DNA of 16,808 nucleotides from Pseudomonadota bacterium (GTDB taxonomy: Bacteria > Pseudomonadota > Alphaproteobacteria > Rhizobiales > Beijerinckiaceae). The DNA lies in assembly GCA_023423995.1 (NCBI GenBank), contig JAFAEL010000065.1, positions 1-16,808 on the forward strand, given 5' to 3'. Below the pieces are notes generated by a model. It was not told where the DNA came from. It did not search any database and worked only from the letters and a program-made list of their open reading frames with translations. Positions 2,492 through 16,808 of the stretch are shown here, piece by piece; the stretch's first letter is position 1; every line of letters begins with the position of its first letter. The translations under genes were made by a program, and so were the position numbers.

Positions 2492-2511
2492 CGGGCCGAG
2501 CTATCGGCCCG
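2492..2511. terminator. Bidirectional hairpin between convergent genes
   Basis: CGGGCCGA (2492-2499) and TCGGCCCG (2504-2511) form a perfect 8-bp stem with a 4-nt loop. It sits 4 nt after the phosphatase stop and includes the end of the convergent GGT-family gene, whose TAG stop (2501-2503) falls in the loop. There is no T-run on either side, so termination efficiency is uncertain. Position between two convergent genes favours a shared terminator. Confidence 0.5.
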
Positions 2512-4895: not shown

Positions 4896-5789
4896 TTGCC
4901 CGCGGATAGCGCCCGTCGTGCGCTCCTCTTCCGGGAGAGCGCAGCCGAGAAGATTCGGCGACACGTATTGGGGCTCGCCTGGGCCTTGAAGCCCGAGCGG
5001 GCGCCAGGCTTGCCGGTGCTCTGGGGCAGGTGGCTCACCTCCCTCGGGCGGGCGAAGCTCCCCGATCCCGAACGCGCGCTCGCCCGACCGCATGGCTTTG
5101 CGGGGTTCGTCAAGGACCTCTCTGTGCCGACGCTCATCGCGGCCTATGGCTCGGGGCTGTACCCCTTCGCGCATCTCGGCCCGCTGAAATGGTGGTCGCC
5201 GCCCGAGAGGGCTGTCGTGCCCGTACGCGACCTCCATGTCTCGCGCCGCATCCGCAGCCGCATGCGCCAAAACCGGCTCAAGGTCACCTTCGACGCCGAT
5301 TTCGAGGCGGTCATCCGGGCCTGCGCACGCCCGCGCGAAGGCAAGGTGCCGCTCACCTGGATCACGCCGCGGATCATGCGGGCCTATGCCGAGCTGTTCG
5401 ATGCCGGCATCGCCCATTCCTTCGAGGTCCGGACGGAGGGAGGCGACCTCGTCGGCGGCGGCTACGGCGTCGCGGCGGGCGGCGTCTTCGTCATCGAGTC
5501 GCAATTCGCCTGGGAGCCCGGTGCCTCCCAGATCGGCTTCGCGGTGCTCAGCTGCCACCTCGCCGAATGGGGGTTCGTGCTTCTGGACAACAAGCTCATG
5601 ACGCCGACCGTGGAGCGAATGGGCTTCCGCAACATTCCGCGCAGCGCCTATCTGGCGACGCTCGCTTCACCTCGGGACATTGGACGCCCCGGCCGGTGGC
5701 AGGCGGTGATGGACACGAAGGAGGCGGAAGCTGCCCTCCGGTCCCCGGCTGCGGCGGGCGCCGCAGCCGCGACCTCCGAAGAGGCGTGA
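4896..5789 (+). CDS. Leucyl/phenylalanyl-tRNA-protein transferase (Aat) paralogue, divergent
   Basis: 297-residue protein with the Aat fold (GNAT-like). Canonical Aat moves Leu or Phe from charged tRNA to the N-terminus of proteins, marking them for ClpAP. Family landmarks in order are LPDPERAL (55-62), AAYGSGLYPF (82-91), WWSPPERAVV (99-108), DLHVSRRI (112-119), LTWITP (153-158), AHSFEV (173-178), LVGGGYGV (185-192), IESQF (200-204) and VLLDNK (228-233). E201 matches E. coli E156 and D231 matches D186, but K233 stands where catalytic Gln188 is expected. About 54 residues precede the usual start, and the tail is Ala-rich. The TTG start at 4896 is chosen for the GGAGAGG ribosome site 6 nt upstream; no ATG is available. 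It is probably a paralogue with altered activity rather than the housekeeping Aat. Confidence 0.85.
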   Translation: MPADSARRALLFRESAAEKIRRHVLGLAWALKPERAPGLPVLWGRWLTSLGRAKLPDPERALARPHGFAGFVKDLSVPTLIAAYGSGLYPFAHLGPLKWWSPPERAVVPVRDLHVSRRIRSRMRQNRLKVTFDADFEAVIRACARPREGKVPLTWITPRIMRAYAELFDAGIAHSFEVRTEGGDLVGGGYGVAAGGVFVIESQFAWEPGASQIGFAVLSCHLAEWGFVLLDNKLMTPTVERMGFRNIPRSAYLATLASPRDIGRPGRWQAVMDTKEAEAALRSPAAAGAAAATSEEA

Positions 5790-5810
5790 GGCCCCGGAAC
5801 GTCCGGGGCC
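5790..5810. terminator. Bidirectional hairpin terminator between convergent Aat-like and Ohr genes
   Basis: GGCCCCGGA (5790-5798) and TCCGGGGCC (5802-5810) form a perfect 9-bp stem with the 3-nt loop ACG. It begins directly after the Aat-like stop codon and ends 10 nt before the Ohr stop. There is no T-tract, but the placement and a very stable stem between two converging genes fit a shared terminator. Confidence 0.55.
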
Positions 5811-5820
5811 GCGGTGCGCA

Positions 5821-6240
5821 TCAGCGCAGGACGATCTCGACCTCGACGTTGCCGCGGATCGCCTTGGAATAGGGGCAGTTCTGATGCGCCGCGTGGAGCA
5901 ACTCCTCGGCGACGCTCCGCTCGATGCCCGGCAGGCTAACCTCAAGCTTGCATCCGATCCCGAAGCCGCCGGCGGCGTCCGGCCCGAAGGCGATATGTGC
6001 TGTCACGACCGACTGCCCGATATCGATCCCCTTCTGCTTTGCCAGGAATTCCAGCGTGCCGCCGAAACAGGCCGAGTAGCCGCAGGCGAACAGCTCCTCG
6101 GGATTCGTCCCGACCCCATCCCCGCCCATCTCGGTGGGGCGCGAGAGCGCATGGCTCACCCTGCCGCTCGCGGCCTCGGTGCGGCCGGCGCGGCCGCCAG
6201 TCGTGGTCGCGGTCGAGGTGAATACGGTCTTCGTAAGCAA
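5821..6240 (-). CDS. ohr: Organic hydroperoxide resistance protein (Ohr/OsmC family peroxidase)
   Basis: 139-residue thiol peroxidase that reduces organic and fatty-acid hydroperoxides, recycled by dihydrolipoyl groups; cytoplasmic homodimer. The sequence has the Ohr start (KTVFTSTATTTGGRAGR), the conserved Arg17, NPEELFACGYSACFGG (46-61) with Glu49 and peroxidatic Cys58, and resolving Cys122 in NCPYSKA. Length is typical. The usual FAAGYxACF reads FACGYSACF, adding Cys53; Cys97 is a further extra. The TTG start (6238-6240) is chosen because it gives the normal family N-terminus; an AAGGA ribosome site lies 8 nt upstream. No OhrR-type MarR regulator is in the window. It lies downstream of the hydantoinase-like gene on the same strand, separated by a hairpin, and is probably functionally independent of it. 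Confidence 0.93.
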   Translation of the reverse strand: MLTKTVFTSTATTTGGRAGRTEAASGRVSHALSRPTEMGGDGVGTNPEELFACGYSACFGGTLEFLAKQKGIDIGQSVVTAHIAFGPDAAGGFGIGCKLEVSLPGIERSVAEELLHAAHQNCPYSKAIRGNVEVEIVLR

Positions 6241-6259
6241 AAGCCTGGTCCTTGTTTAC

Positions 6260-6276
6260 CCGGGCGTCGTGCCCGG
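6260..6276 (-). terminator. Hairpin after the hydantoinase-like gene
   Basis: CCGGGC (6260-6265) and GCCCGG (6271-6276) form a 6-bp stem with a 5-nt loop, starting 3 nt after the hydantoinase-like stop codon (6280-6282) and 20 nt before the Ohr start. There is no U-run. It may end the catabolic transcript or only reduce readthrough into ohr. Confidence 0.4.
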
Positions 6277-6279
6277 CCT

Positions 6280-7674
6280 TCAGTGAGCTGCGCGGCGGCG
6301 GACGAACTGTCCCTGCCCGACCTGACCGTCCTGCAAAGCCCCGTCGCGGAGCGCGAAGGCGCCCCGCACGAGCGTGTGCCTGACTTGTCCGCGGAAGCGC
6401 CAGCCTTCGTAGATGGAGTAGCCGGCGCTCGACCGGATGTCGGACGGCCCTAGGGTCCATTCCGCCGCGAGATCCACGATGGCAAGATCCGCATCCTTGC
6501 CGATCTCGATCGCGCCCTTGTTCTCCAACCCCATGATGCGGGCCGGATTGCGGCTGAGGAGGTCCGAGATCCGGGCCAGGGGGATGCCGCGCTTGTGATG
6601 GCCTTCGGTCAGCATGACGGGGAGTAGCGTCTCAAGGCCGGGGCATCCCGGCGAGGCGGCCCAGATGCCGCCCTTCTTCCCCTCGGCGGTCCGGTGGACA
6701 TGGTCCGTCGCCACCGTGTCCACGGACCCGTCCGCGACCGCGGCCCAGAGGGCCTCCCGATCGGCCGGCTCCCGCAGCGGCGGGTTGATCTTGCCGAGAT
6801 CGCCGCCCGACCAGGTGACGTCGTGCGTCAGGTAGTGCGGGCAGGTCTCGATGAGCACGCGCCCGCCCTGCTGTCGCGCCGCAAGCCCAACCCTGAGGGC
6901 ATGGGCGGAGGACGTATGGACGACGTAGAGCGCAGCTCCAGCCGCTTCGGAGAGCATGGCGGCGCGCTGCACGGCATCCGCCTCGATGAAGGGCGGGCGT
7001 GTCGCGTTCCAGGCCGCGAGACCGCCCCTCCCCTCCGGATCGCCCGCCTTCGCGCGGTCCCGCAGCACCCAGGAGACCTCGATATTCTCCGGGTGGGGGC
7101 AGACGAGCGCGCCCTTGGCCGCGGCAGCCTCGGCCAGCCGGTACAGGAACCCGTCGTCGATGTCGGGCAGGCCGAGCCGCGTGCCCTCCCCGCCGCGGTT
7201 GTTCATGAAGATCTTGAAGCTGGAGACGCCGTATTCGCCGACATAGAGCGGGATGCCCGCGAGCTGTTCCTCGGTCGCAATGATGAAATGGTAGCCGAAA
7301 TCGACCCGGGCGCCCGCCTCTGTGACTCGCACGACCTCGTCGAAGAGCCCGCCCTCGTAGGCGGTTGTGCCCATGAGGTAGGGGATCAACGTCGTGACCC
7401 CGCCAACCGCCGCGGCGGCGGTCTCGCCCGCGGCATCGGCCGGCACGCGCGGCCGCGAGATGTCGCTTCCGTGGCCGAGATGCAGATGGGCGTCGATGAT
7501 GCCGGGCATGACCACCAGCCCGATCGCATCGAGCCGCTCCGGCGCCTTCGCGGACGAGCCGGGTGCCAGCAGGGCCGCGATCCGGCCCTGCGTGATGCCG
7601 ATATCCGCCGCCGCGAGTTCGCCAGACGCCAGCAGGACGCGCCCGCCGGCGACGAGCAGGTCGAAGTCGCTCAT
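6280..7674 (-). CDS. Amidohydrolase of the dihydropyrimidinase/hydantoinase/allantoinase group
   Basis: 464-residue binuclear-metal amidohydrolase of the cyclic amidohydrolase group, which opens ring amides (hydantoins, dihydropyrimidines, allantoin, dihydroorotate) to N-carbamoyl acids. The metal set is complete: H63 and H65 in DAHLH, carboxylated Lys154 in SSFKIFM, H194 in CPHPEN, H253 in VVHTSS, and D324 in VATDH. A C-terminal GKDADLAIVD segment (392-401) completes the small beta domain. ATG 7672-7674 is preferred over an upstream in-frame start at 7737 because the family N-terminus begins at MSDFDLLVAGG and AAGGA lies 8 nt upstream. It follows the isochorismatase-like gene by 11 nt. A hydantoinase followed by an N-carbamoyl-hydrolase-like enzyme is the logic of hydantoin or N-methylhydantoin breakdown; the exact ring substrate is inference. 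Confidence 0.92.
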   Translation of the reverse strand: MSDFDLLVAGGRVLLASGELAAADIGITQGRIAALLAPGSSAKAPERLDAIGLVVMPGIIDAHLHLGHGSDISRPRVPADAAGETAAAAVGGVTTLIPYLMGTTAYEGGLFDEVVRVTEAGARVDFGYHFIIATEEQLAGIPLYVGEYGVSSFKIFMNNRGGEGTRLGLPDIDDGFLYRLAEAAAAKGALVCPHPENIEVSWVLRDRAKAGDPEGRGGLAAWNATRPPFIEADAVQRAAMLSEAAGAALYVVHTSSAHALRVGLAARQQGGRVLIETCPHYLTHDVTWSGGDLGKINPPLREPADREALWAAVADGSVDTVATDHVHRTAEGKKGGIWAASPGCPGLETLLPVMLTEGHHKRGIPLARISDLLSRNPARIMGLENKGAIEIGKDADLAIVDLAAEWTLGPSDIRSSAGYSIYEGWRFRGQVRHTLVRGAFALRDGALQDGQVGQGQFVRRRAAH

Positions 7675-7685
7675 GGGCCCTGTCC

Positions 7686-8393
7686 TTACGCCGCCGTGGC
7701 CGCCGCGGGCGCGATTCCCTGCAGCGCCGCGAGACATTCGGCGGTCGTCATCACGTCCGCGTATTTCTCCGACATGTCGAACAGGTTCACGGCGTGCGAA
7801 ACTTGGCTTCGGTCATAGACGGCGTCGGTCGGGACGCAGACGCGGAAGTTGTACGAGAACGCATCCACGACCGAGCCACGCACGCACCCGCTCGTCGTGC
7901 AGCCCGTGACCACAAGGGTGTCGGCGCCGAGATTGACCAGATAGCTTGCGAGCGGCGTCCCGTAGAACGCGCTTGGATGCTTCTTCGGCAGCAGGATGTC
8001 GTTCGGCCGCGGCGCGACCTCCTCGACGAAGTCGTAGCCACGTGCGCCGACCGTCATGATGGCCGGAACCTTCTCTGAGAGCCGCCCTCCGTCGAAGCTC
8101 TGCTTCGGAGCGACATGCGGGTAGAGCACCGGCCAGCCGCGCTCGCGGAACAGGTCGAGGATCGTCCGGATCTTGCCGACGGCGTTCCAGCCCACCTCGC
8201 CGCAGGAGGTGGGGAATTCCTTGATGGAGTCCCAGAACGGGCGCGGCGCCGTGCCGACGGTCCGGTACTGGACGTCGATGATGAGCAGGGCCGGGCGCGA
8301 GCCCAGCCCGCTCGGGCGGCCGAAGCCGGCGGCCCTATAGGCGCGCTGCTCCTCTTCGGGGATCAGTCCATCCCAGGGCTTCGCTGCGCTCAT
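7686..8393 (-). CDS. Isochorismatase-fold cysteine amidohydrolase (N-carbamoylsarcosine amidase/maleamate amidase-like)
   Basis: 235-residue cytoplasmic cysteine hydrolase. The triad is visible: D40 in LLIIDVQY, the catalytic Lys in LPKKHPSAFYGT (K137 or K138), and nucleophile C170 in VTGCTTSGCVRGSVVDAFSY. The latter matches the N-carbamoylsarcosine amidohydrolase, maleamate amidase and RutB-like branch rather than true isochorismatases or nicotinamidases. These enzymes release ammonia from a terminal amide or carbamoyl group. The ATG (8391-8393) overlaps the TGA of the upstream lyase gene by one base and has a GAGG ribosome site 8 nt ahead, so translation is probably coupled. Its place between a lyase and a hydantoinase-like enzyme suggests it acts on the ring-opened product. 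Substrate unproven. Confidence 0.92.
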   Translation of the reverse strand: MSAAKPWDGLIPEEEQRAYRAAGFGRPSGLGSRPALLIIDVQYRTVGTAPRPFWDSIKEFPTSCGEVGWNAVGKIRTILDLFRERGWPVLYPHVAPKQSFDGGRLSEKVPAIMTVGARGYDFVEEVAPRPNDILLPKKHPSAFYGTPLASYLVNLGADTLVVTGCTTSGCVRGSVVDAFSYNFRVCVPTDAVYDRSQVSHAVNLFDMSEKYADVMTTAECLAALQGIAPAAATAA

Positions 8394-9298
8394 CAGTCCG
8401 CCCTCACCTTGTAGCGCGCCTCGAGAGCATCGAAGCGGGCCTTATCGACCGCCGCCTGGCGTTCCTCGAACGAGGCGAGTTGATCCCGCACGCCCGCGAG
8501 CGATCCGGTCGCCTTCAGCTCGGAGAGGACGCCGCGGACCGACCGCAAAGCGGCCTGGAGGGCAGCGTTGGCATAGAGCACGCCGCTGAAGCCGAACTTC
8601 TTGAGTTTCGCGTTCGGGATCTCCGGGGTCAGCCCGCCGAAGACGATGTTGGCGATGTGCGGGGCCGGGACCTCGCGCGGGATGCGCGACAGCTCCGCCT
8701 CGTCCGTGGGCGCCTCGATGAAGATGACGTCGGCGCCCGCCTCGACGAAGGCGTTCGCGCGCTCGATCGCGGCGTCGAGACCATAGATGGCGCGTGCATC
8801 GGTTCTGGCGATGATCTGGAGATCGCCGTCGCGGCGGCTGTCGACGGCGGCCCGGATCTTCTGGACCATCTCGGCCGTGGAGATCACGTCTTTGCCGGCG
8901 AAGTGGCCGCATTTCTTCGGGAACACCTGGTCCTCGAGCTGAATGCCGGCAGCACCCGCGCGCTCCAGGACCTGGATCGTACGACCGACATTCACGGGGT
9001 TTCCAAAGCCGGTATCGCCGTCGACGATCAGCGGGAGACCCACGACGTCCGCTATGGCGGAGACCACGCCCGCGACCTCGGTCAGGGTGGTTAGCCCGAC
9101 ATCGGGCACGCCGAACTGCATGTTCGCGATGCCGGCCCCGGTCACATAGACGGCCTCGAAGCCGAGGTCCTCGATGACGCGCGCGAAGAGTGCGTTTGGG
9201 GCACCGGGCATCAGCACGGCATCCCGCCGTGCGAGGGTCGATTTCAGGCGGCTGGTAGCGCGGATCGCGCGTTCGCTGCTGTTGATTGCGTCAGTCAA
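8393..9298 (-). CDS. Isocitrate lyase/PEP mutase superfamily C-C lyase (methylisocitrate or 2,3-dimethylmalate lyase-like)
   Basis: 301-residue TIM-barrel enzyme of the isocitrate lyase/PEP mutase superfamily. Mg-binding DGDTGFGN is at 93-100, LEDQ at 121-124, the lyase loop KKCGH at 128-132 with catalytic Cys130, and IARTDA at 163-168. The Cys-containing loop points to C-C bond lyases that cut 2-hydroxy diacids to pyruvate or glyoxylate plus a second acid, rather than to PEP mutases. Candidates are methylisocitrate lyase and 2,3-dimethylmalate lyase; no methylcitrate synthase is present to support propionate metabolism. The start is TTG (9296-9298), 15 nt after the GntR stop, with GGACGGA upstream; no suitable ATG exists before the conserved barrel. 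It is the first enzyme gene after the regulator and is coupled to the isochorismatase-like gene. Confidence 0.9.
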   Translation of the reverse strand: MTDAINSSERAIRATSRLKSTLARRDAVLMPGAPNALFARVIEDLGFEAVYVTGAGIANMQFGVPDVGLTTLTEVAGVVSAIADVVGLPLIVDGDTGFGNPVNVGRTIQVLERAGAAGIQLEDQVFPKKCGHFAGKDVISTAEMVQKIRAAVDSRRDGDLQIIARTDARAIYGLDAAIERANAFVEAGADVIFIEAPTDEAELSRIPREVPAPHIANIVFGGLTPEIPNAKLKKFGFSGVLYANAALQAALRSVRGVLSELKATGSLAGVRDQLASFEERQAAVDKARFDALEARYKVRAD

Positions 9299-9313
9299 AG
9301 TTCCGTCCAGGTT

Positions 9314-10060
9314 TCACGAAGCGGCGCGGCGCCGCCTGGGTTGCGCAGGGGCCGCCTCGGCACCCGCCTGCGAAATGGGTTCTACGGCCCGAAGATCCGG
9401 GCTCCGCGCCGATGCGAGGCTCCGGGCCGCGTTGCGGATGTGCTGCCGCATGGCGGCTTCGGCGGCGTCGGGGTCGCGCGCGCTCAGGGCATCCAGGATG
9501 GCCTGGTGCTCGCGGAAGGCAGCCTTCGCCCGGCCCGGCTCCGTGCTCGCTTTGAAGCGGTAAAGCCGGAGCTGATAATAGAGATCCTCCATCAGGAGCT
9601 CCTGCAGCCGCGGGTTCCTGGCGCAGGTCATGATCGAGAGGTGGAAATCTTCGTCGGGCTTGCGCTGAAAATAGCCATCGTTGCGCAGAACCTTGTCGTC
9701 CTTCCCGTGCTCGGCCAGGAGCTCCTGGAGGGACGTGAGCTCGGACCGCGTGATGCGCTCAGCCGCAAGTCGGCAGGCCATTCCCTCGAGCGCCTCGCGA
9801 ATCTCGAAAAGCTGCGCGAGATCGGCCGTGGACAGCGCGATCACGCTCACGCCGATCCGCGGCGTACGCATGACGAGCCGCCCCTCGAGGCGGCCGAGCG
9901 CCTCCCGCAGCGGCCCGCGGCTGATCCCGAGTTGCCGCGCGAGATGCGCCTCGGACAGGCGCTCGCCGGGCTGGAACTCGCCAGACGTGATCGCCTGGAT
10001 GATCTTGCCCAATGCTTCCTCGGCAAGCGAGTTGGTCGCGATTGGCGCGATGGCCGACAT
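9314..10060 (-). CDS. GntR family transcriptional regulator, FCD domain
   Basis: 248-residue repressor-type regulator. A winged helix-turn-helix occupies about residues 10-75 (GEFQPGERLSEAHLARQLGI then SRGPLREALGRLE). The all-helical FCD effector domain follows, with the metal/ligand set D138 and H140 in DEDFH, H185 in REHQAI, and H207 in RQHIRN. FCD regulators usually sense small carboxylates and control a neighbouring catabolic operon; the lyase/amidase/hydantoinase genes follow within 15 nt. ATG 10058-10060 is chosen for a GGAG ribosome site 9 nt upstream; an in-frame ATG at 10096 would add 12 residues but has no ribosome site. The C-terminal tail is rich in Ala and Arg (ending PRRRRAAS). 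Autoregulation through the inverted repeat upstream is plausible. The effector is unknown. Confidence 0.95.
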   Translation of the reverse strand: MSAIAPIATNSLAEEALGKIIQAITSGEFQPGERLSEAHLARQLGISRGPLREALGRLEGRLVMRTPRIGVSVIALSTADLAQLFEIREALEGMACRLAAERITRSELTSLQELLAEHGKDDKVLRNDGYFQRKPDEDFHLSIMTCARNPRLQELLMEDLYYQLRLYRFKASTEPGRAKAAFREHQAILDALSARDPDAAEAAMRQHIRNAARSLASARSPDLRAVEPISQAGAEAAPAQPRRRRAAS

Positions 10061-10112
10061 GATCGACTTCTCCGTTGCGGACGCCGGCGGGGTCATATCG
10101 ACTGTCCCGAGC

Positions 10113-10143
10113 CGTCGCGGGCGATTTCATCTTACCCGCGACG
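10113..10143. promoter_or_regulatory. Inverted repeat upstream of the GntR gene (operator or hairpin)
   Basis: CGTCGCGGG (10113-10121) and CCCGCGACG (10135-10143) are perfect 9-bp reverse complements separated by an AT-richer 13-nt spacer, in the gap between the methyltransferase stop (10168) and the GntR start. As RNA it would be a stable stem with a large loop, terminating or attenuating transcription from the methyltransferase side. As DNA it could be an operator for the regulator. No T-run follows. Confidence 0.45.
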
Positions 10144-10167
10144 ACGCCGCTTCGGGGCGGTTGTCAA

Positions 10168-11214
10168 CTAGTTCGGCTTCCGGGCGGCGATCACCGTCCA
10201 TGGAAGCCGCCATTTCGGGAAGTTGGGAGCTGTCGCGCCCGGCGATTCCTCGAACGGTTCTATGACGACATCCCTGAACCCGAGCGCCTCCAGGTATGCC
10301 CGAAAGTCGAACATGTCGAAATCGGCCATGTAGGGCTCGTTGTTCCGCTGGCCGTGGCCGTGCAGGAAGAAACGCTCCACCTCGTCCCGTGCCCGGAAAT
10401 CGAGCTGGACGAGGTGCCCGCCCGGCGCGAGCACCCGGAAGGCCTCCTTCATGGCAGCCCGGACGGCACCGTTGTCGAGTTCGTGCAGCAGCATCGTGGA
10501 GGTGACGAGATCATAGGCCTCGTCCGGTTCCCCGGTGCTGGCCACGTCCGCCAGCCGGTAATGCAGGTTCTCGGCCCCGGCATCGGCGGCCTCGACAGCG
10601 GCGAGCCGTAGGCAACCCTCCGACAGGTCCACGCCCTCGACCTTCGCGGAGGGCCAGCGCTGCGCGATCGGAAGCGCGCTCTTGCCGAAGCCACAGGCAA
10701 GATCGAGCACCTTCCTCGGCGCGGGCGCATACTTGGCGATTGCGGCCGCGAACTTGTGGTGGAGGCCATACGCATCCGTGCTGCCCGGCTGCGTCGTCGC
10801 GGCGCTCGCCTTGTAGATGTCGCCCGCAAGCACGTCGCCGTGAAGGTTGCCAGGATGCTGATGAACATCGACTGCACTGTAATAGGCCGGCACTTCGACG
10901 TCGGCGTGCGTGTAATGCTTCTCCGCGACCGCCATCAGGCGCGAGGTCAGCTGACCTCGCTGCCGCTCCGCCTCCACGGCGAGGCCGTGCCGAGAGGTGT
11001 ATTTGTGATGCTGCACATAGTGCTCGAGGAACGCGAAATATTCGTAGAAGGGATTTCCGCGCAGCCGCTCGGCGGTGGCGTGCTTGTCGCCGCCCGTGGC
11101 TTCGCTGGCACGCACGACCTCTTCGCGGGCACGGGGGTAGACCGTGTCCATGAGGTAGGACTTCGCGCCTGCGAGGAAGGCCTGGTAGGCGCGTCCGTCC
11201 GGGGAGAGTTCCAT
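10168..11214 (-). CDS. Class I SAM-dependent methyltransferase with uncharacterised N-terminal region
   Basis: 348-residue protein. Residues about 150-345 form a Rossmann methyltransferase: SAM-binding motif I VLDLACGFGKSA (169-180), acidic motif GVDLS with D196, LADVA (221-225), and the post-motif VLAPGGHLVQLD (261-272). The first 150 residues are not a known methyltransferase extension that I recognise. They are helical-looking and rich in His, Tyr and Glu (FLEHYVQHHKYTSRHG at 62-77, DVHQHPGNLHGD at 116-127), suggesting a substrate- or metal-binding cap. ATG 11212-11214 is chosen for GGAG 7 nt upstream; an in-frame start at 11235 would add 7 residues. It follows the 91-aa gene by 21 nt. The methyl acceptor is unknown; small-molecule methylation within the cluster pathway is inference. 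Confidence 0.9.
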   Translation of the reverse strand: MELSPDGRAYQAFLAGAKSYLMDTVYPRAREEVVRASEATGGDKHATAERLRGNPFYEYFAFLEHYVQHHKYTSRHGLAVEAERQRGQLTSRLMAVAEKHYTHADVEVPAYYSAVDVHQHPGNLHGDVLAGDIYKASAATTQPGSTDAYGLHHKFAAAIAKYAPAPRKVLDLACGFGKSALPIAQRWPSAKVEGVDLSEGCLRLAAVEAADAGAENLHYRLADVASTGEPDEAYDLVTSTMLLHELDNGAVRAAMKEAFRVLAPGGHLVQLDFRARDEVERFFLHGHGQRNNEPYMADFDMFDFRAYLEALGFRDVVIEPFEESPGATAPNFPKWRLPWTVIAARKPN

Positions 11215-11235
11215 TGCGCTTCTCCGTCTCAGCAC

Positions 11236-11511
11236 TCAGTCCAGATCGAAGTCGGGATCGGCGATCGGCTTGAAGACCTCCCGCGCGAAGGCGTCGAGTT
11301 CGGCATGGATCGCCTCCTCGCTCGTGCCGGGTCCGATCCCGGCACGCATCACCTGGGCCTTGAGGACCGCCACCTCACCCGCAAGCGCGATGATGATGCC
11401 CATCAGCCGGTCGATGCGCGGATCGCCCAGATAGGGCTTTCCGAACAGCGAGGGATCCTCCGCGGTGCCCGTCGGGGCCGGCACCGCATCCGCCTCGAGG
11501 GTCGCGCTCAT
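11236..11511 (-). CDS. Small protein of unknown function, coupled to transporter
   Basis: 91-residue acidic protein, not recognised. After a Pro/Ala-rich start (residues 1-20) comes FGKPYLGDPRIDRLMGIIIALAGEVAVLKAQVMR (about 23-56), a likely amphipathic or coiled-coil helix, then a Glu/Ala helix and an acidic end (DPDFDLD). There is no signal peptide and no definite transmembrane helix, though IIIALAGEVAVL is moderately hydrophobic. The ATG (11509-11511) overlaps the transporter TGA by 4 nt (ATGA), a strong sign of translational coupling, and the methyltransferase follows 21 nt downstream. It could be an accessory or oligomerising partner of the methyltransferase or another cluster enzyme. The coupling and the codon use in keeping with its neighbours argue that it is real. 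Confidence 0.78.
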   Translation of the reverse strand: MSATLEADAVPAPTGTAEDPSLFGKPYLGDPRIDRLMGIIIALAGEVAVLKAQVMRAGIGPGTSEEAIHAELDAFAREVFKPIADPDFDLD

Positions 11512-12845
11512 TCAGGCATCGCCTTCTTCGCGGTCTCGGGAACCGTCATGAGGGTTGCGAGCGTGATGACCGAGACCGCCATCAGGAAGTAGGCCGGCGA
11601 GATCTTGTCGCCCGTGGCCTGGATCAGCCATGTCGAGATGTAGGGAGCGCTGCCGCCGACGAAGACGCCCGCCAGGTTGAACCCGAGGCCGATGCCGCTG
11701 TAGCGCACGCGGGTCGGGAAGAGCTCGGCCAGCGCCGCCCAGATGGCCCCCATGATGGCCGCCTCGAGCAACCCGAGCACGACCTGGGCCCCGAAGATCA
11801 GGGGCAGGTTGTCTCCCTGCATGATCTTGAACGCCGGGATGGTCAGGACGAGGAAGCCGAGGGCGGAGCCGCCGATCACGAGCTTGCGGCCAATGATGTC
11901 CGAGAGCAGGCCGAAGAACACGAGAGCGACGGCAGCGATCGCGATGGTGGTCGTGGTCGAGAACGTCGCCTGCGCCTTGGTCAGCGTGCCGACCGTCTGC
12001 AGATAGATCGAGAGATAGACGAAGACGGTGTAGTAGGCCGCGAAGTTGATCGCCGTGAGGCCGAACGCCTTGGCGATGTTGACCGAGTTCGTCCGGAAGA
12101 CCTCGACGACCGGCAGTTCGGCAACCTTGCCGGTCTGCTCGACGCGCTTGAATGCCTCAGCCTCCTGCAGCCGGATACGGACCCAGAGCCCGACGAAGCC
12201 GGTCAGGATCCCGAGCAGGAACGGAACTCGCCAGCCCCAGGCGGTGAACTGCTCCGGGGTCAGCACCCAGTTGATGATGCCGACGACCGCGGAGGCAAGC
12301 AGCAGGCCTGAAAGGGAGCCGACCTGGGTCGCGCTCGTCAGGAAGCCGCGGCGGTTCGGAAGCGCGGTCTCGGCGAGGATCGCGGCGGATCCGCTGACCT
12401 CGCCGCCGGCCGACAGGCCCTGGGCGAGGCGCATGATCACGAGCAGGAGCGGCGCCGCGACGCCTATCGTCTCGTATGTGGGCAGGCAGCCGATCCCGAA
12501 GGTCGCGATGGCCATCATGATGACGGAGATGGCTAAGGCCGGCTTGCGCCCGTGCCGGTCGCCGATATGGCCGAACAGGATGCTTCCCAGCGGACGCGCC
12601 ACGAAGGCGATGGCGAACACGGCCAGGGTCGAGAGAAGGCCCGCGGTCGGCGAGGAGGTCGGGAAGAACTGTATCGCGATCGTGGTCGCGACATAGCCGT
12701 AGACACCGAAATCGTAATACTCGACGAGGGACCCGATGCCGCCTGCATAGACTGCGCGGCGGCGCTGCTCGGGCGTGCTGCCTGCGGCGGCTTTGCTTAC
12801 GGTCCCCTGCCGAACGTTCGCTGGACTGCTTAGAGTGGCAGACAT
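11508..12845 (-). CDS. MFS transporter, metabolite:H+ symporter (MHS) family
   Basis: 445-residue inner-membrane symporter of the MHS group (ProP, KgtP, ShiA relatives), importing organic acids, betaines or similar small polar solutes with protons. Features include the first-helix signature GSLVEYYDFGVYGY (38-51), the MFS loop 2-3 motif GHIGDRHGRK (92-101), RLAQGLSAGGE (139-149), a second-half GLLSDIIGRK loop, and a pattern of hydrophobic stretches fitting 12 helices. The frame stays open far upstream, but ATG 12843-12845 is chosen because it gives the normal family N-terminus and has GGAGGGG 9 nt ahead. Upstream lies a 77-bp gap with a strong palindrome, so this may be the first gene of a transcript; downstream it is coupled to the 91-aa gene. 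The substrate is presumably the compound degraded by the cluster. Confidence 0.95.
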   Translation of the reverse strand: MSATLSSPANVRQGTVSKAAAGSTPEQRRRAVYAGGIGSLVEYYDFGVYGYVATTIAIQFFPTSSPTAGLLSTLAVFAIAFVARPLGSILFGHIGDRHGRKPALAISVIMMAIATFGIGCLPTYETIGVAAPLLLVIMRLAQGLSAGGEVSGSAAILAETALPNRRGFLTSATQVGSLSGLLLASAVVGIINWVLTPEQFTAWGWRVPFLLGILTGFVGLWVRIRLQEAEAFKRVEQTGKVAELPVVEVFRTNSVNIAKAFGLTAINFAAYYTVFVYLSIYLQTVGTLTKAQATFSTTTTIAIAAVALVFFGLLSDIIGRKLVIGGSALGFLVLTIPAFKIMQGDNLPLIFGAQVVLGLLEAAIMGAIWAALAELFPTRVRYSGIGLGFNLAGVFVGGSAPYISTWLIQATGDKISPAYFLMAVSVITLATLMTVPETAKKAMPE

Positions 12846-12874
12846 TCTGACGATCCCCTCCAGTTCTGCTAATT

Positions 12875-12894
12875 GCACACTGTCGACAGTTTGC
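12875..12894. promoter_or_regulatory. Palindromic operator candidate upstream of the MHS transporter
   Basis: ACTGTCGACAGT at 12879-12890 is a perfect 12-bp palindrome. The flanks extend it to 20 bp (GCAC...TTGC) with only the innermost flanking pair mismatched. It sits 30 nt before the transporter start, where a repressor would block transcription. The TGT-N2-ACA core resembles sites of FCD-type GntR regulators, and one half-site (ACTGTC, 10101-10106) recurs in front of the GntR gene. Binding by that regulator is inference. Confidence 0.5.
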
Positions 12895-12922
12895 GTCAAG
12901 CAGGTTCTGTGCCTGCGAGCGT

Positions 12923-13921
12923 TCAGCTCGCAAGCGTCCTCGCGAACCATGACGGATGCGACGCCACCCACTCGGCGAACGCGGCGGCGTCGGCCTCTGG
13001 CGCGCCGAGAATGTCCGGGCCGAACTCCTCCGCCACGCGCCTTGCCGTGACGGCCTGCCGCTCGCGGGTCACGTCGTCCCGATAGTCGATGCTGGCGTCC
13101 CGATCCTCGCCAAAGCGCCAGCGGAAGCCGGGCATCTTCTTTTCGAGTTCGCGGCACAGGAGTTCTGGCGACCAGGTCCGGATCGCCGCGAGATTGTACA
13201 CCCGGTGGGCAAGGGAAGGCGCCTCGATGAGCAGCGCGACGGCATTTGCGACGCGGCGCGCATCGATCCAGTCCCGTGCCCCGCCGTGCGGGATGATCAC
13301 CTCGCATCCCCGGACCGCGTCGCGGGCGATCTGGAAGAGCGGGCTCATCACGTCCCGCTGCCCGGTCTCCCATTCCCACCGGCCGAAGACGGCCGCGATC
13401 CGCGGGACCACCACATCCAGGTCGTGCAGCTCGCCGAAGCGGAGCACGCTCTGTTCGGCGGCGAGCTTGCTGATGCCGTAGACCGAGAGCGGACGTAGGG
13501 GAGCATCCTCCACCACCGGCTCACGTCCGAACGGAAGCCCGCCATAGACGGCGCTCGAACTCGCGGCCACGATTCGCCGAATTCCGGCCCGACGGCACGC
13601 CTCCAGGACGCGCGCGGTCCCGACGACGTTCACCTCCAGAACGCGGCCGAAATCGCTCCGCTCCGTCTCGACGCTCGCCGTCACGCTGGCGCCGTGGAAC
13701 AGGGCCTCGCAGCCGAAATCGCGCAACCGCGCCTCGAGCTGCACTCCATCGAGCACATTGAGGCGTTCGACGGTGAGCGCGTCCTGCCTCGGGAGCTCGG
13801 CGACGGCATCCGCTCGGAGCGGGCCGAGGTCGAGCGCCAGGACCTCATGCCCCCTTCCGAGCAGGGCATCGAGGATGTTCAGGCCGACGAAGCCGGCCGC
13901 GCCGGTGACCGCGACCTTCAC
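12923..13921 (-). CDS. NAD-dependent epimerase/dehydratase (extended SDR)
   Basis: 332-residue extended short-chain dehydrogenase. The NAD-binding Rossmann motif TGAAGFVG is at 6-13 (G7, G10, G13), an Asp ending strand 2 (D31) favours NAD over NADP, SSSAVYG lies at 121-127 and the catalytic YGISK at 148-152. PRIAAVFGR and HGGARDWIDARRVA are in the C-terminal substrate domain. Relatives include nucleotide-sugar epimerases and acid-sugar dehydrogenases of the D-erythronate dehydrogenase type; the setting suggests oxidation of a hydroxy intermediate rather than sugar-nucleotide work, but this is inference. The GTG start (13919-13921) overlaps the TGA of the upstream flavoprotein gene by 4 nt (GTGA), so the two are translationally coupled. 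Length is normal. Confidence 0.93.
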   Translation of the reverse strand: MKVAVTGAAGFVGLNILDALLGRGHEVLALDLGPLRADAVAELPRQDALTVERLNVLDGVQLEARLRDFGCEALFHGASVTASVETERSDFGRVLEVNVVGTARVLEACRRAGIRRIVAASSSAVYGGLPFGREPVVEDAPLRPLSVYGISKLAAEQSVLRFGELHDLDVVVPRIAAVFGRWEWETGQRDVMSPLFQIARDAVRGCEVIIPHGGARDWIDARRVANAVALLIEAPSLAHRVYNLAAIRTWSPELLCRELEKKMPGFRWRFGEDRDASIDYRDDVTRERQAVTARRVAEEFGPDILGAPEADAAAFAEWVASHPSWFARTLAS

Positions 13922-15894
13922 GACCGGCGCTCGATGCTGCGGCCAGCCGCGTGACCCTCGAACACGGCCTCCACGGCAGTGCGGGGCGCGAGGCAGTCGC
14001 CGGCCCCGAGGGGGAGGTCACTATCGAAGGACAGAGCCCGTTCGAGCTCGTTGTCGGCCATGTTCGGCCGGATTGCGACCAGGGTGTCGATCGCCAGGGT
14101 CTCCATGTCCCCCGTGGAGACATCCTCCACCTCGAGGCTGCCCTCCCGGAAGTCGACCAGCCGGCGCAGGGGCACGATGCGGACGCGCAGTTCGCGCAGC
14201 CGCTTCCGGGTCGCGGTCGTGCTGTAGATCGTCGTGCGCCAGCCGAGGCCCGCGAACGGGCTGAGGGCCGTCACCTCGTGCCCACCGAGGGCGAGGTGTT
14301 CCAGGAGCGAGAACGCGCCCCAGTCGCCCGTCTCGTCGTAGACGGCAATTCGGCGTCCGAGCGGCGTCGCGGGATCGACCGCCTCCGTCAGCGTCAGCGC
14401 CACGGCCCCGCTCGGGAGCCTGACCGGACTCGGCCGCGATCCCGTTGCCAGGATGACGGTGTCGGCCCCGAACTCCCTGATGGCGGCCGCGTCCGCCGTG
14501 CGCCCGAACTCGACGCGGACGCCGTTCAGCTCGAGGCGGCGCTGCTGGAGCGCCAGGAATTTTCCGAAGTCTTCGCGCTTGCGCATCGAGGCCGCCAGCG
14601 CGAGCTGGCCGCCGAGGCGCGCGCCCGCCTCCCAGAGGGTGACCCGGTGGCCGCGGGCCGCCGCCACATAGGCCGCCTCGGCGCCGGCAGGTCCGCCGCC
14701 AACGACCAGTACGGATTTCGGCGCGCCGGCCCGGTCGTCCTCGGGCTCCGCCCATACTTCCTCGCGCCCCGCGATCGGGTTGACCAGGCAGGTGATAGCT
14801 ATGTTCTTTTCGAGGTGCTGCGCGCAGCCCTGGTTGCAGCTGATGCAGGTGCGAACCTCGTCCGCGCGCCCCGCTAGCGACTTCCGGACGATGGCCGGGT
14901 CGGCGATGTGGCCGCGCGCTATGCCGACGAGGTCCGCCTCGCCGGCGGCGATCATCCGCTCCGCCTCGGCGAGGTCGCGGTACTTGCAGACCGTGATGAT
15001 CGGGATCGGCGTGCCCTGCTCGCTCAGGGCGCGCCGAACGGGGCCCGGGAACTCGCGGAAGGGCGCCTCGTCGAACGTCATGTCGGCCATCTGCGTGCCG
15101 ACCGAGTAGGACATGTTGTAAGCTGAGTGGCTCACGTGGACGAAGTCCAGCGCGACCTCCTTCGCGGCCTTCGTGATGATCTCCCTCGCCATGTCGGGCG
15201 TGATCCCGTCCGGCAGGTATTCCTCGACCGTGAAGCGGATCCCCATGCAGCGCTCCGGCCCGATCTCGGTCCGCACGGCCTTGAGCACCTCCAGCGGAAA
15301 GCGCATCCGGTTCTCGACCGACCCGCCATATTCGTCGGTACGCTGGTTCGAGGACGGGGACAGGAACTGCTGGAGCAGGTGGCCGTGGCCCCAATGCAGT
15401 TCGAGGCCGTCGAGCCCTGCCTCGAGCAGGTTCAGGCTTGTGCGCACGAAGCCGTCTCGGACTGCGATCATATCGCGGCGGGTCATCTCCCGCGGCGGAA
15501 AGGCCGTCGTGGACCAGCGGATGGGAGAAGCGCCGAGCGAGCAGGTGCGCTCAAACTCGCCCTCGATCTGCCGGCCCATATGGCAGACCTGGCCGATGAG
15601 CGGCACGCCCTCTTCGTGGACGGCGTCGGCCACGCGGCGGAAAGCCTCGACGGAACCAGGAAGATAGCCGGCGACGCCCTGGGGACGGCCGAGCGTGTTG
15701 TCGGACACGCGGACGGCCTCGAAGATGATGGCGCCAACGCCGCCCCGGGCCCGTTGCCGGTGATATTCGACGTGCCGCTGCGACGGGAGGTGGTGCTCGC
15801 CGAAATTGGTGGTGTGCGCCGGGACGACGATGCGGTTCTTCAGCCGGACCCCGTTGAGCGAAATGGGCGTCTCGACGCTTGGAAAAAGTGCCAC
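13918..15894 (-). CDS. OYE-type flavin/iron-sulfur oxidoreductase (2,4-dienoyl-CoA reductase/TMADH/N-methylproline demethylase superfamily)
   Basis: 658-residue multidomain flavoprotein. The N-terminal FMN TIM barrel runs to about 345 (LKNRIVVPAHTTN at 18-30, QVCHMGRQ at 102-109, FLSPSSNQRTDEYGGSVENR at 177-196). The 4Fe-4S cysteines C350, C353, C357 and C369 have the family spacing CX2CX3CX11C. An FAD domain starts with VVGGGPAG (397-404). In the second dinucleotide fold the usual GxGxxG is absent; it reads VYDETGD (518-524), the TMADH style that binds ADP rather than NADPH. The active-site run HWGHGHLLQQF (167-177) keeps the TMADH His (H170) but has His172 where E. coli dienoyl-CoA reductase has Tyr166. 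An amine demethylase or dehydrogenase is thus more likely than a fatty-acid reductase. The start is GTG (15892-15894); it is coupled to the SDR by GTGA. Confidence 0.92.
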   Translation of the reverse strand: MALFPSVETPISLNGVRLKNRIVVPAHTTNFGEHHLPSQRHVEYHRQRARGGVGAIIFEAVRVSDNTLGRPQGVAGYLPGSVEAFRRVADAVHEEGVPLIGQVCHMGRQIEGEFERTCSLGASPIRWSTTAFPPREMTRRDMIAVRDGFVRTSLNLLEAGLDGLELHWGHGHLLQQFLSPSSNQRTDEYGGSVENRMRFPLEVLKAVRTEIGPERCMGIRFTVEEYLPDGITPDMAREIITKAAKEVALDFVHVSHSAYNMSYSVGTQMADMTFDEAPFREFPGPVRRALSEQGTPIPIITVCKYRDLAEAERMIAAGEADLVGIARGHIADPAIVRKSLAGRADEVRTCISCNQGCAQHLEKNIAITCLVNPIAGREEVWAEPEDDRAGAPKSVLVVGGGPAGAEAAYVAAARGHRVTLWEAGARLGGQLALAASMRKREDFGKFLALQQRRLELNGVRVEFGRTADAAAIREFGADTVILATGSRPSPVRLPSGAVALTLTEAVDPATPLGRRIAVYDETGDWGAFSLLEHLALGGHEVTALSPFAGLGWRTTIYSTTATRKRLRELRVRIVPLRRLVDFREGSLEVEDVSTGDMETLAIDTLVAIRPNMADNELERALSFDSDLPLGAGDCLAPRTAVEAVFEGHAAGRSIERRS

Positions 15895-15905
15895 GCTTTC
15901 CTGTC

Positions 15906-16808
15906 CTATGAACTCTGTAGAAGGCCTCTGCCGGCGGCATCCCCTTCGGCGATCACGGCCTCGATGCTCCGGGGCGCTCGCGCGTCCCCGACGACCCGTA
16001 CATCATATCCGGCCTGACGCAGAGGCTGGACGAGTTCGACGCGCGGCAGTCTCCCGGACGCGAAGACGAGCAGGTCGGCGCCGCCCACGGCCTCGATCCG
16101 CCCGGACATCAGTGACTTCACGGCGACCGCACCGTCCGGGCCGATCTCCTCCAGGGCGGAGCTCTGGCGGAGGCTCACTCCGGCCCGTTCCATGCGGCCG
16201 AAGAAATACGGGAGTTCGTAGGTCTTGTTGAAGACATCGGAATAGGCGGCCAGCGGCGTGACGACGGTGCAATGCGCGCCCGCCTCCGCGGCTTCGATCG
16301 CGAAGGCGGCGGCCGCGCTCTCGCCGGACTCGTCCACGATCACGATGCGGGAGCCGGATGTCGCAGCACCGGTCAGAACCGCCTCGTCCAGGCCCATCGT
16401 CCGGGCATTGCGAAGGCCGGGAATGGAGGCGCGGTCGGGCCGGTACGGCGTGTAGCCGGTCAGGTCCCATTCCGAGCCCGTTGCGAGGACGATCACGTCC
16501 GGCCTGACGGTAGCCAGCATGCGGATGTCGGCGGCCAAGTTGAGGACGATCTCCGCGCCAGCCGCTCGCAACGGCGAGACCAGGTTTTCGATCCCCCTCC
16601 CCCACCGCTCCCGGAGCGGGAGGCGGGCCAGTGGACGGAGTCTCCCGCCGAGTTCAGCGCTCTTCTCGAACAAGGTTACGCGGTGACCGGATGCGGCAGC
16701 CTGCGCCGCGCAGGCGAGCCCGGCGGGTCCGCCGCCGACCACCGCCACCTGCAGCACCTTCGCGGATTTTGCGATTTCGGAACGCCGGGCATCCTCACGG
16801 CCCATGGC
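15906..16808 (-). CDS. Second OYE-type flavin oxidoreductase, C-terminal FAD part; N-terminus beyond window
   Basis: The visible 300 codons match the FAD and second Rossmann domains of the neighbouring 658-residue flavoprotein: FAD motif VVGGGPAGLACAAQ, GHRVTLFEKSAELGGRL, VIVLATGSEWDL, then IVIVDESGE (again the TMADH-like DExG form, not GxGxxG). The frame is open to the right edge. An ATG at 16805 could be read as the start of a 299-residue protein, but the codons there give AMGRED, which corresponds to the NPIAGREE linker of the neighbour after its last iron-sulfur Cys. I therefore read it as internal to a full-length protein of about 650-690 residues whose FMN and Fe-S part lies outside. 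It ends with TAG 11 nt before the second flavoprotein starts, so the two are a tandem pair, perhaps subunits or sequential enzymes. Confidence 0.88.
   Translation of the reverse strand, partial: AMGREDARRSEIAKSAKVLQVAVVGGGPAGLACAAQAAASGHRVTLFEKSAELGGRLRPLARLPLRERWGRGIENLVSPLRAAGAEIVLNLAADIRMLATVRPDVIVLATGSEWDLTGYTPYRPDRASIPGLRNARTMGLDEAVLTGAATSGSRIVIVDESGESAAAAFAIEAAEAGAHCTVVTPLAAYSDVFNKTYELPYFFGRMERAGVSLRQSSALEEIGPDGAVAVKSLMSGRIEAVGGADLLVFASGRLPRVELVQPLRQAGYDVRVVGDARAPRSIEAVIAEGDAAGRGLLQSS

Follow-up and report, generated by a model that had tools for sequence, protein, structure and literature searches.

What do ten genes on the minus strand, running from position 6280 to the right-hand edge of a 16,808-nucleotide stretch of a Beijerinckiaceae genome (assembly GCA_023423995.1, contig JAFAEL010000065.1; this whole stretch is called the window in the following), do together, and do they belong together at all? 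In the direction of transcription, from right to left, they encode part of a flavoprotein, an OYE-type flavoprotein (OYE2), a short-chain dehydrogenase/reductase (SDR; EPIM), an importer of the MHS family, a protein of 91 residues (U91), a methyltransferase (MT), a GntR/FCD regulator, a C-C lyase, an isochorismatase-fold amidase (ISOC) and a cyclic amidohydrolase (HYD). The first-pass annotation had described ten same-strand genes with three overlaps, which is borne out by the list of open reading frames (ORFs) and by gene calls based on codon usage. Both give the same ten genes, with overlaps at 13918-13921, 11508-11511 and 8393 and remaining gaps of 11 to 77 bases, the codon-usage calls having shorter starts for the importer (12845), MT (ATG 11214) and HYD (ATG 7674). 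Pfam and NCBIfam, with which 17 ORFs of the window were scanned, agree with the gene families named earlier, and refine the SDR to the extended NAD-epimerase type. The window stops inside the cluster, and genes further to the right lie outside the view. In our estimate there is about an even chance that the island is a catabolic set of two co-recurring modules, of which module A (GntR, lyase, ISOC and HYD) would open a cyclic imide or lactam, deamidate the product and cleave it, while module B (OYE-type flavoprotein, EPIM, importer and U91 with MT) would import and prepare the ring compound.

For the comparison with other genomes, a profile of MT was built from 40 homologs. Applied to bacterial genomes it gave 199 loci; the 80 best were retained and analysed together with the window as 81 loci (L and G numbers denote loci and genomes). 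Named carriers among them are Peristeroidobacter soli (L057), Pseudoxanthomonas yeongjuensis (L008), Albibacillus kandeliae (L061) and Salipiger mucosus (L074). Family labels across the loci were first assigned by single linkage; the labels PrpD-like (L087/L088), cupin-like, CobW (L118/L131) and FAD_binding_2-type (family c10) were read from sequence only, 'LeuCD-like' was taken from subunit size, and for three clusters (L089, L090 and L095) the annotation of the plasmid records was used.

Three unrelated types of ring opener occur in the 81 loci, namely an amidohydrolase (window, L001, L008, L027, L029 and L047), HyuA and/or HyuB (L012, L024, L036, L039, L043, L054, L076 and L078) and a PuuE/NodB-like protein (11 loci, including L054). 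A ring opener was found in 24 loci and an isochorismatase-fold gene in 19, and 17 loci contain both (p 4e-10). Nine of the 24 ring-opener loci also hold an aconitase-type hydratase and seven a PrpB-type lyase. Seen from the lyase, all seven loci comprise a ring opener (p 1e-4) and six an isochorismatase-fold amidase (p 5e-4), while the 13 loci with an aconitase large subunit show a ring opener in nine cases (p 0.0015) and the lyase in five (p 9e-4). Since these counts are per locus, with several Burkholderiales loci being near kin and many stretches short, the p values overstate independence. Among 380 control genes, taken from 20 regions of five genomes, the profiles of the lyase, the HYD type, HyuA, HyuB and the two-subunit aconitase found no match.

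The gene orders show how these functions are combined. In L024 and L076, a HacA-like large subunit, the small subunit, the lyase, HyuB, HyuA and an isochorismatase-fold gene follow each other on one strand, and L068 shows the order hydratase, lyase, isochorismatase-fold gene and two PuuE-like genes. L131 comprises a CobW-like gene, ISOC, HYD and an AcnA-like gene on one strand and GntR and the lyase on the other, and L118 holds the lyase, an AcnA-like gene, two isochorismatase-fold genes, a CobW-like gene and HYD. The lyase frame of L118 (5768-6349) is short, with 194 residues and an apparent internal deletion, in a locus otherwise well stocked with module A. A variant is seen in L047 and L008, where an HMGL-type gene and a CoA-transferase III come after the HYD-type and aconitase genes and stand in for the lyase. 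A lyase 55% identical to that of the window adjoins PrpF (511 bits, cut-off 441) in L088, which has an AcnA-like aconitase and a PrpD-like gene in the same stretch, and in L087 relatives of the window's GntR protein and of its lyase, each 53% identical, are encoded some 7 kb apart.

Since unrelated enzymes with the same outcome fill each place, these loci point to a common route of ring opening, half-amide hydrolysis, hydration and C-C cleavage. On this route, the substrate would be a cyclic imide or lactam with a ring of five or six members, which HYD would open to a half-amide. ISOC would release the amide nitrogen as ammonia, leaving a substituted acid of the maleate or succinate type, and an aconitase-type hydratase, which relatives possess and which was not seen in the window, would turn this acid into a substituted malate. 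The PrpB-type lyase would finally cleave the malate to a 2-oxoacid and a carboxylic acid. In module B, the flavoprotein would probably reduce a ring C=C, the SDR would oxidise or reduce a ring alcohol, and U91 and MT would act as one functional unit. The sequence of ring opening, deamidation and C-C cleavage suggested earlier is supported in this form, the order of the reactions and the imide or lactam class being inferred from gene position.

The three enzymes of module A have intact active-site motifs. HYD shows in its 464-residue form the motifs DAHLH (61), FK (153-154), CPHPEN (192), VHTSS (252) and ATDH (322), aligned with 1nfg, 1gkr and 3e74, and has the binuclear-metal ligand set HxH, Lys, His, His, Asp of hydantoinases, allantoinases and dihydropyrimidinases. 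ISOC, with IIDVQ (38), PKK (136-138) and TTSGCVR (166), aligned with 3ot4 (Lys and Cys part), 26st and 1nba, carries the Asp-Lys-Cys set of isochorismatase-fold amidases. Its best solved relative is 3ot4 (124.5 bits), a protein named putative isochorismatase, which we take to be the maleamate amidase NicF. The lyase contains KKCGH at residues 128-132, aligned with the petal death protein and PrpB, and thereby the motif of the phosphoenolpyruvate mutase/isocitrate lyase (ICL) superfamily (K-K/R-C-G-H, with the catalytic Cys). Its solved relatives include the petal death protein (204.6 bits), PrpB (196.5 bits) and 3fa3 (159.7 bits; the comparison for 2,3-dimethylmalate lyase). The motif residues of HYD and ISOC, as well as those of the lyase and OYE2, presumably have the catalytic and ligand roles of their counterparts.

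The same two hydrolases could also serve a hydantoin or ureide pathway, with a hydantoin or dihydropyrimidine as the substrate of HYD and an amino acid as the product once ISOC has taken off the N-carbamoyl group; the lyase would then be incidental. HYD is indeed most like hydantoinases and allantoinases, and N-carbamoylsarcosine amidohydrolases (107.3 bits) are among the proteins aligned with ISOC, although these are outscored by 3ot4. Amino-acid products, however, require neither an aconitase nor a malate-type lyase, whereas these occur with ring-opener or amidase genes in L012, L024, L043, L068, L076 and L118. We therefore regard a hydantoin pathway as unlikely.

Whether module A belongs with module B can be judged from the loci in which genes of both halves are linked, which are L001, L042, L055, L119 and L120, the last two having been reached via ISOC and not via MT. 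L001 shows on one strand ISOC (71% identity), U91, MT (46%), a TRAP gene, OYE2 (57%), a CobW-type gene and HYD (42%). L042 and L055, from Comamonadaceae, comprise EPIM-OYE2 (41% and 58-59%), ISOC (67%), a PuuE/NodB-like gene, U91, MT (37%) and a second OYE, and at the family level U91, MT and an OYE are joined to a lyase, an isochorismatase-fold gene and HyuA in L036. Orthologs of ISOC with 66-72% identity were found in L001, L006, L009, L015, L020, L037, L042, L055 and L118-L120, and HYD proteins with 40-42% identity lie in the same stretch as the ISOC gene in L001, L118-L120 and L131. OYE2 has orthologs of 57-59% identity in L001, L042 and L055 and of 54% in L132, and EPIM of 41-43% in L042, L055 and L132; EPIM follows OYE2 with a 4-base overlap in the window and likewise in L055. 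In the 385 alphaproteobacterial genomes described below, OYE2 (E 1e-120) occurs in five, all of which are among the 25 carriers of MT (chance about 8e-7, calculated by hand).

A search started from ISOC and covering 399 genomes from G003's order gave only four places with at least 67% identity, in three genomes (L118-L121). Three of the four lie with U91/MT and all four with a ring opener of the HYD or PuuE-like type; since L121 belongs to the genome of L055, this amounts to two of three new places with U91/MT. From 30 places below 67% identity, 11 were taken, which make up the ten loci L122-L131, some of them short, down to 5.5 kb. The less similar relatives among them (43-46%, L122-L130, some stretches short) show U91/MT in none of nine cases. 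The ten genes are not a chance mix, and they are conserved in parts.

A number of observations weigh against a two-module route for imides or lactams. No hydratase was found among the 17 ORFs of the window scanned, the genes to the right lying beyond the window. Among the matches listed, HYD, ISOC, the lyase and OYE2 reach no equivalog cut-off of NCBIfam and can therefore be assigned to no known enzyme: HYD scores 262.9 of 357.85 bits for allantoinase AllB and 236.4 of 393.25 for D-hydantoinase, ISOC 52.2 of 377.95 for RutB and 39.4 of 370 for biuret hydrolase, the lyase 287.5 of 354.4 for 2-methylisocitrate lyase PrpB (TIGR02317), and OYE2 530 of 793 for mycofactocin OYE-2, 293 of 825 for BaiCD and 256 of 750 for bilirubin reductase. 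The lyase of the window is 53-55% identical to those of L087 and L088 with their PrpF/PrpD-like neighbours, compared to 40-45% for those of HyuAB/aconitase operons, and may therefore act on a different compound. The AcnA-like proteins of L118 (1185 bits) and L131 (1074 bits) exceed the AcnA equivalog cut-off of 945 bits, as does that of L088; since they may be plain aconitases, position alone ties them to the route. Co-occurrence was not significant for aconitase with amidase (5 of 13 loci, p 0.15) or for OYE with ring opener (5 of 11, p 0.19), and reached only p 0.017 for OYE with amidase. In the 380 control genes, the isochorismatase-fold profile matched two genes and the PuuE-like, OYE and EPIM profiles one each. 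Since 57 of the 81 loci show no ring opener in the stretch examined, the reaction of U91/MT itself need not concern imides. The partial flavoprotein, at 27-33% identity to flavoproteins of other loci, is without a demonstrated ortholog. Finally, all ten genes occur together in no relative examined.

A rival view is that two unrelated operons lie side by side, a flavoprotein/U91/MT set on the right and a GntR/lyase/amidase/hydrolase set on the left, separated by the 71-base gap between MT and GntR. The lyase and GntR genes were seen in none of the stretches examined of L001, L042, L055, L119 and L120, nor with OYE2-EPIM in the other loci examined. Module A stands without MT in about 20 kb at L118 and L131, although U91/MT does occur in the genome of L118, at L119 and together with HYD and ISOC, and right-half genes stand alone in the stretches examined of L092, L093 and L132. 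What speaks against separate operons is the linkage of ISOC and a ring opener with U91/MT in the five loci named above, in differing orders, together with the absence of U91/MT from the nine loci of less similar amidases. Two unrelated operons are, in our view, distinctly improbable. The single island proposed by the first-pass annotation is supported in that genes of both halves are linked elsewhere. The scattering in homologous genomes that would speak against it is seen in part, the halves being separable.

U91 and MT are a conserved pair. A same-strand ORF of less than 150 residues lies directly upstream of MT in 69 of 76 loci (70 of 77 with the window), a count that leaves out L051, L054 and L056, where no MT was called, and L048, where no gene lies upstream. 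A profile of these 69 small proteins, from which the window was excluded, recognises the U91 of the window with an E value of 4.3e-8 (31.6 bits), compared to at most 4.9 bits in 1000 shuffles. It matches in 76 of the 81 loci at E 1e-5 (75 of 80 without the window) and the MT profile in 78 at E 1e-10 (77 of 80), both with none of the 380 control genes, one of which matches the U91 profile weakly (E 0.022). The 80 loci had been selected on MT, and 385 alphaproteobacterial genomes served as the unselected test. MT was found in 25 of them (E 1e-40), U91 in 25 (E 1e-3), both in 23 and each alone in two (Fisher p 1.5e-32). By eye, the places of U91 and MT lie within 2 kb in 21 of the 23 genomes with both, the exceptions being G461 and G625. 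In many genomes, the scans for MT, U91, ISOC and OYE2 scored only the best 5, 12, 7 and 3 preliminary candidates, respectively, so that absences are lower bounds.

The closest methyltransferases are 98%, 88% and 64-70% identical to MT. Six MT matches with 31-43% identity were found in 397 genomes of the order of G001 (Rhizobiales), at least three of which come from genomes encountered before, and none in four genomes drawn from the family. MT meets the description of a class I S-adenosylmethionine (SAM) methyltransferase by its Rossmann fold and the glycine-rich SAM motif LDLACGFGKS, with HQHPG and RNNEPY as further conserved motifs. The predicted structure (pLDDT 91) comprises the Rossmann methyltransferase and an N-terminal helical part; since the best query TM score of the fold search was 0.50 (DsyB) among the 50 matches listed, the N-terminal domain stays unplaced. 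For U91, two helices were predicted (31-56 and 65-84, mean pLDDT 74), and U91 and MT may bind each other. The U91 profile finds 906 proteins at E 1e-5, and among 120 relatives listed there is no Pfam domain, the names, where given, being 'hypothetical protein' and in one case a bare coordinate string. U91 defines a new family of small proteins that is linked to a single family of methyltransferases and has a model in neither Pfam nor NCBIfam.

Instead of a step in one pathway, U91/MT could have a general protective or tailoring role, for example the capping of a reactive intermediate. The pair occurs in many gene contexts, with U91 upstream or downstream of MT, and in several copies per genome, with six to eight U91 places in each of G430, G499, G560 and G734 (eight in G734). 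The varying pathway genes with which the pair shares operons suggest instead paralogs that are each specific to a substrate, and a general role appears rather improbable to us. Six MT-like places were also seen on one Novosphingobium plasmid (NZ_CP017076.1). On the Sphingomonas plasmid pJE1 (L090), TonB, MmgE/PrpD, HapK (RedY-like), FAD oxidoreductase and HyuA/HyuB genes accompany a distant MT that is followed downstream by a U91-like gene. TonB receptors, secreted-looking cupin-like proteins and glyoxalase-like proteins stand beside U91/MT in L029, L047 and L057, with ABM-fold proteins in L047 and L057; such neighbours suggest that the substrate comes from outside and is larger or scarce. The small proteins c9 (about 170 residues) and c7 (about 118 residues) occur together in 12 of the 81 loci, for example at 11795-12645 of L074. 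Neither protein of the L074 pair matches Pfam, and the resemblance of its c9 to TIGR04076 is weak and below the cut-off.

In OYE2, the FMN barrel, the 4Fe-4S cysteines (CX2CX3CX11C at residues 350-369) and the FAD/NAD domain are all present, as in the long flavoproteins of the OYE/TMADH/2,4-dienoyl-CoA reductase kind. Of the two OYE/TMADH-type flavoproteins named earlier, OYE2 is complete, while of the right-hand gene only the C-terminal FAD/NAD part is visible. This part scores 170 bits against the mycofactocin OYE-2 model (cut-off 793), of which it covers positions 364-643. The best solved relatives of OYE2 are 2,4-dienoyl-CoA reductase (226.6 bits) and a protein that carries the label NCR (214.8 bits), with histamine dehydrogenase (179.4 bits) and trimethylamine dehydrogenase (161.7 bits) further down. 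The importer reaches 306.5 bits for ProP and 273.1 bits for TcuC, and TRAP permeases (DctM) are present in 34 of the 81 loci. N-demethylation of betaines or other N-methyl compounds by the flavoproteins, as considered in the first-pass annotation, would suit the long architecture, the two amine dehydrogenases among the relatives and the ProP score, but was rejected as very improbable, since 2,4-dienoyl-CoA reductase and NCR outrank both dehydrogenases and no Rieske or tetrahydrofolate demethylation domain was found in the 17 ORFs scanned.

Features of the island in the order of transcription, with the basis of each assignment
Feature	Position	Strand	Basis
C-terminal FAD/NAD part of OYE/TMADH-like flavoprotein	15906..16808	-	Pyr_redox_2; start beyond window
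OYE/2,4-dienoyl-CoA-reductase-type flavoprotein (OYE2)	13918..15894	-	Oxidored_FMN 197 bits, Pyr_redox_2
NAD-epimerase-type (extended) SDR (EPIM)	12923..13921	-	Pfam
MHS-family metabolite/H+ symporter	11508..12845	-	NCBIfam 2A0106 401.5 bits (cut-off 443.45)
91-residue protein U91, new small-protein family	11236..11511	-	no Pfam/NCBIfam match
Class I SAM methyltransferase (MT), own N-terminal domain	10168..11214 (or GTG 11235)	-	Methyltransf_25 76 bits
GntR/FCD regulator	9314..10096	-	Pfam
PrpB/petal-death-protein/dimethylmalate-lyase-type C-C lyase	8393..9298	-	KKCGH at 128-132, solved relatives
Isochorismatase-fold amidase (ISOC), candidate half-amidase	7686..8393	-	D40, K137/K138, C170
Cyclic amidohydrolase (HYD), candidate imide/lactam ring opener	6280..7674 (or ATG 7737)	-	metal-ligand motifs present

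On the left, HYD is followed after 39 bases by an OsmC-family gene of the same strand (5821-6240), and further left lie genes for a leucyl/phenylalanyl-tRNA transferase, a gamma-glutamyltranspeptidase (GGT), a DUF1028 protein and a peptide-type binding protein. The peptide-type ABC binding protein and GGT occupy 3-1016 and 2501-4348 of the minus strand, and the DUF1028 gene (1040-1777) adjoins this block. Peptide-type binding proteins were also seen near OYE2 genes in L013, L092, L093 and L133-L136, and GGT-type genes in the U91/MT loci L033, L054 and L062-L064; the binding protein and GGT may be part of a wider system. Rfam gave no match in the window. The promoter and terminator scan of 5700-16808 found one and three sites, compared to 0.8 and 4.3 in shuffles, so that no transcript borders can be assigned.

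Concerning the substrate, the cluster family could be a bacterial route for maleimides derived from heme, chlorophyll and bilins, with U91 and MT as a new two-component enzyme upstream, an idea that we consider a long shot. With hematinic acid, imidase and half-amidase would yield methyl-homoaconitate, a homoaconitase-like hydratase would form methyl-homoisocitrate, and the PrpB-type lyase would release pyruvate and glutarate, mirroring the end of the 2-methylcitrate cycle. On paper, hematinic acid may thus fit the pair of hydratase and lyase. Leaves and lake sediments are reported to contain hematinic acid and maleimides as natural products of tetrapyrroles (PMC7318184). If tetrapyrrole maleimides were the substrate, the route would bear on the fate of a pigment that is made and degraded on a scale of 10^12 kg/year (PMC7318184).

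A comparison with known systems shows that each of the pathways considered fails some feature of the island. The nicotinate fermentation of Eubacterium barkeri employs a cyclic amidohydrolase, a dimethylmaleate hydratase of the aconitase kind and a dimethylmalate lyase of the ICL family. The window shares the cyclic amidohydrolase and the ICL-family lyase, and the aconitase-kind hydratase agrees with the proposed route; the window adds OYE, amidase and U91/MT, and neither a dimethylmaleate hydratase nor a B12-dependent mutase was found in the 17 ORFs scanned, the right side lying beyond the window. The second half of the 2-methylcitrate cycle (AcnD/PrpF/PrpB) is resembled by the hydratase, PrpF and PrpB-type lyase of the related locus L088, whereas the lyase of the window lies below the PrpB cut-off and beside ring-opening genes, not beside a methylcitrate synthase. 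The breakdown of creatinine and N-methylhydantoin combines a ring opener with an N-carbamoylsarcosine-type amidase, which corresponds to the order HyuB-HyuA-amidase in L012, L024 and L076. There, however, aconitase and lyase genes lie alongside, and the window has no HyuAB; neither HyuA/HyuB nor a creatinine deaminase was detected among the 17 ORFs scanned, with the same limit on the right side.

Judged by titles and abstract openings, no publication in the literature searched was recognised as describing this gene set, and the earlier statement that no such pathway has been described stands within this literature, with an analogous series known from Aspergillus (PMC9304392). The imide branch of the nicotinate (hxn) pathway of Aspergillus nidulans comprises in this order the OYE-type HxnT, the SDR HxnW, the cyclic imidase HxnM and the amide hydrolase HxnN, along with transporters, and HxnM is likened to a deacetylase-fold protein related to PuuE (PMC9304392). 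The pathway differs in being fungal, in its six-membered ring and in its end product 2-hydroxyglutarate, and it includes no aconitase, lyase, methyltransferase or U91; the ring opener is an amidohydrolase in the window and the PuuE-like HxnM in hxn, and by analogy the PuuE-like gene of L042 and L055 is probably of the kind of HxnM. With its series of OYE, SDR, imidase and amidase and a transporter, the hxn branch is the nearest described parallel to the island, whose significance would lie in a recurring route of ring opening, deamidation, hydration and cleavage with steps filled by unrelated enzymes.

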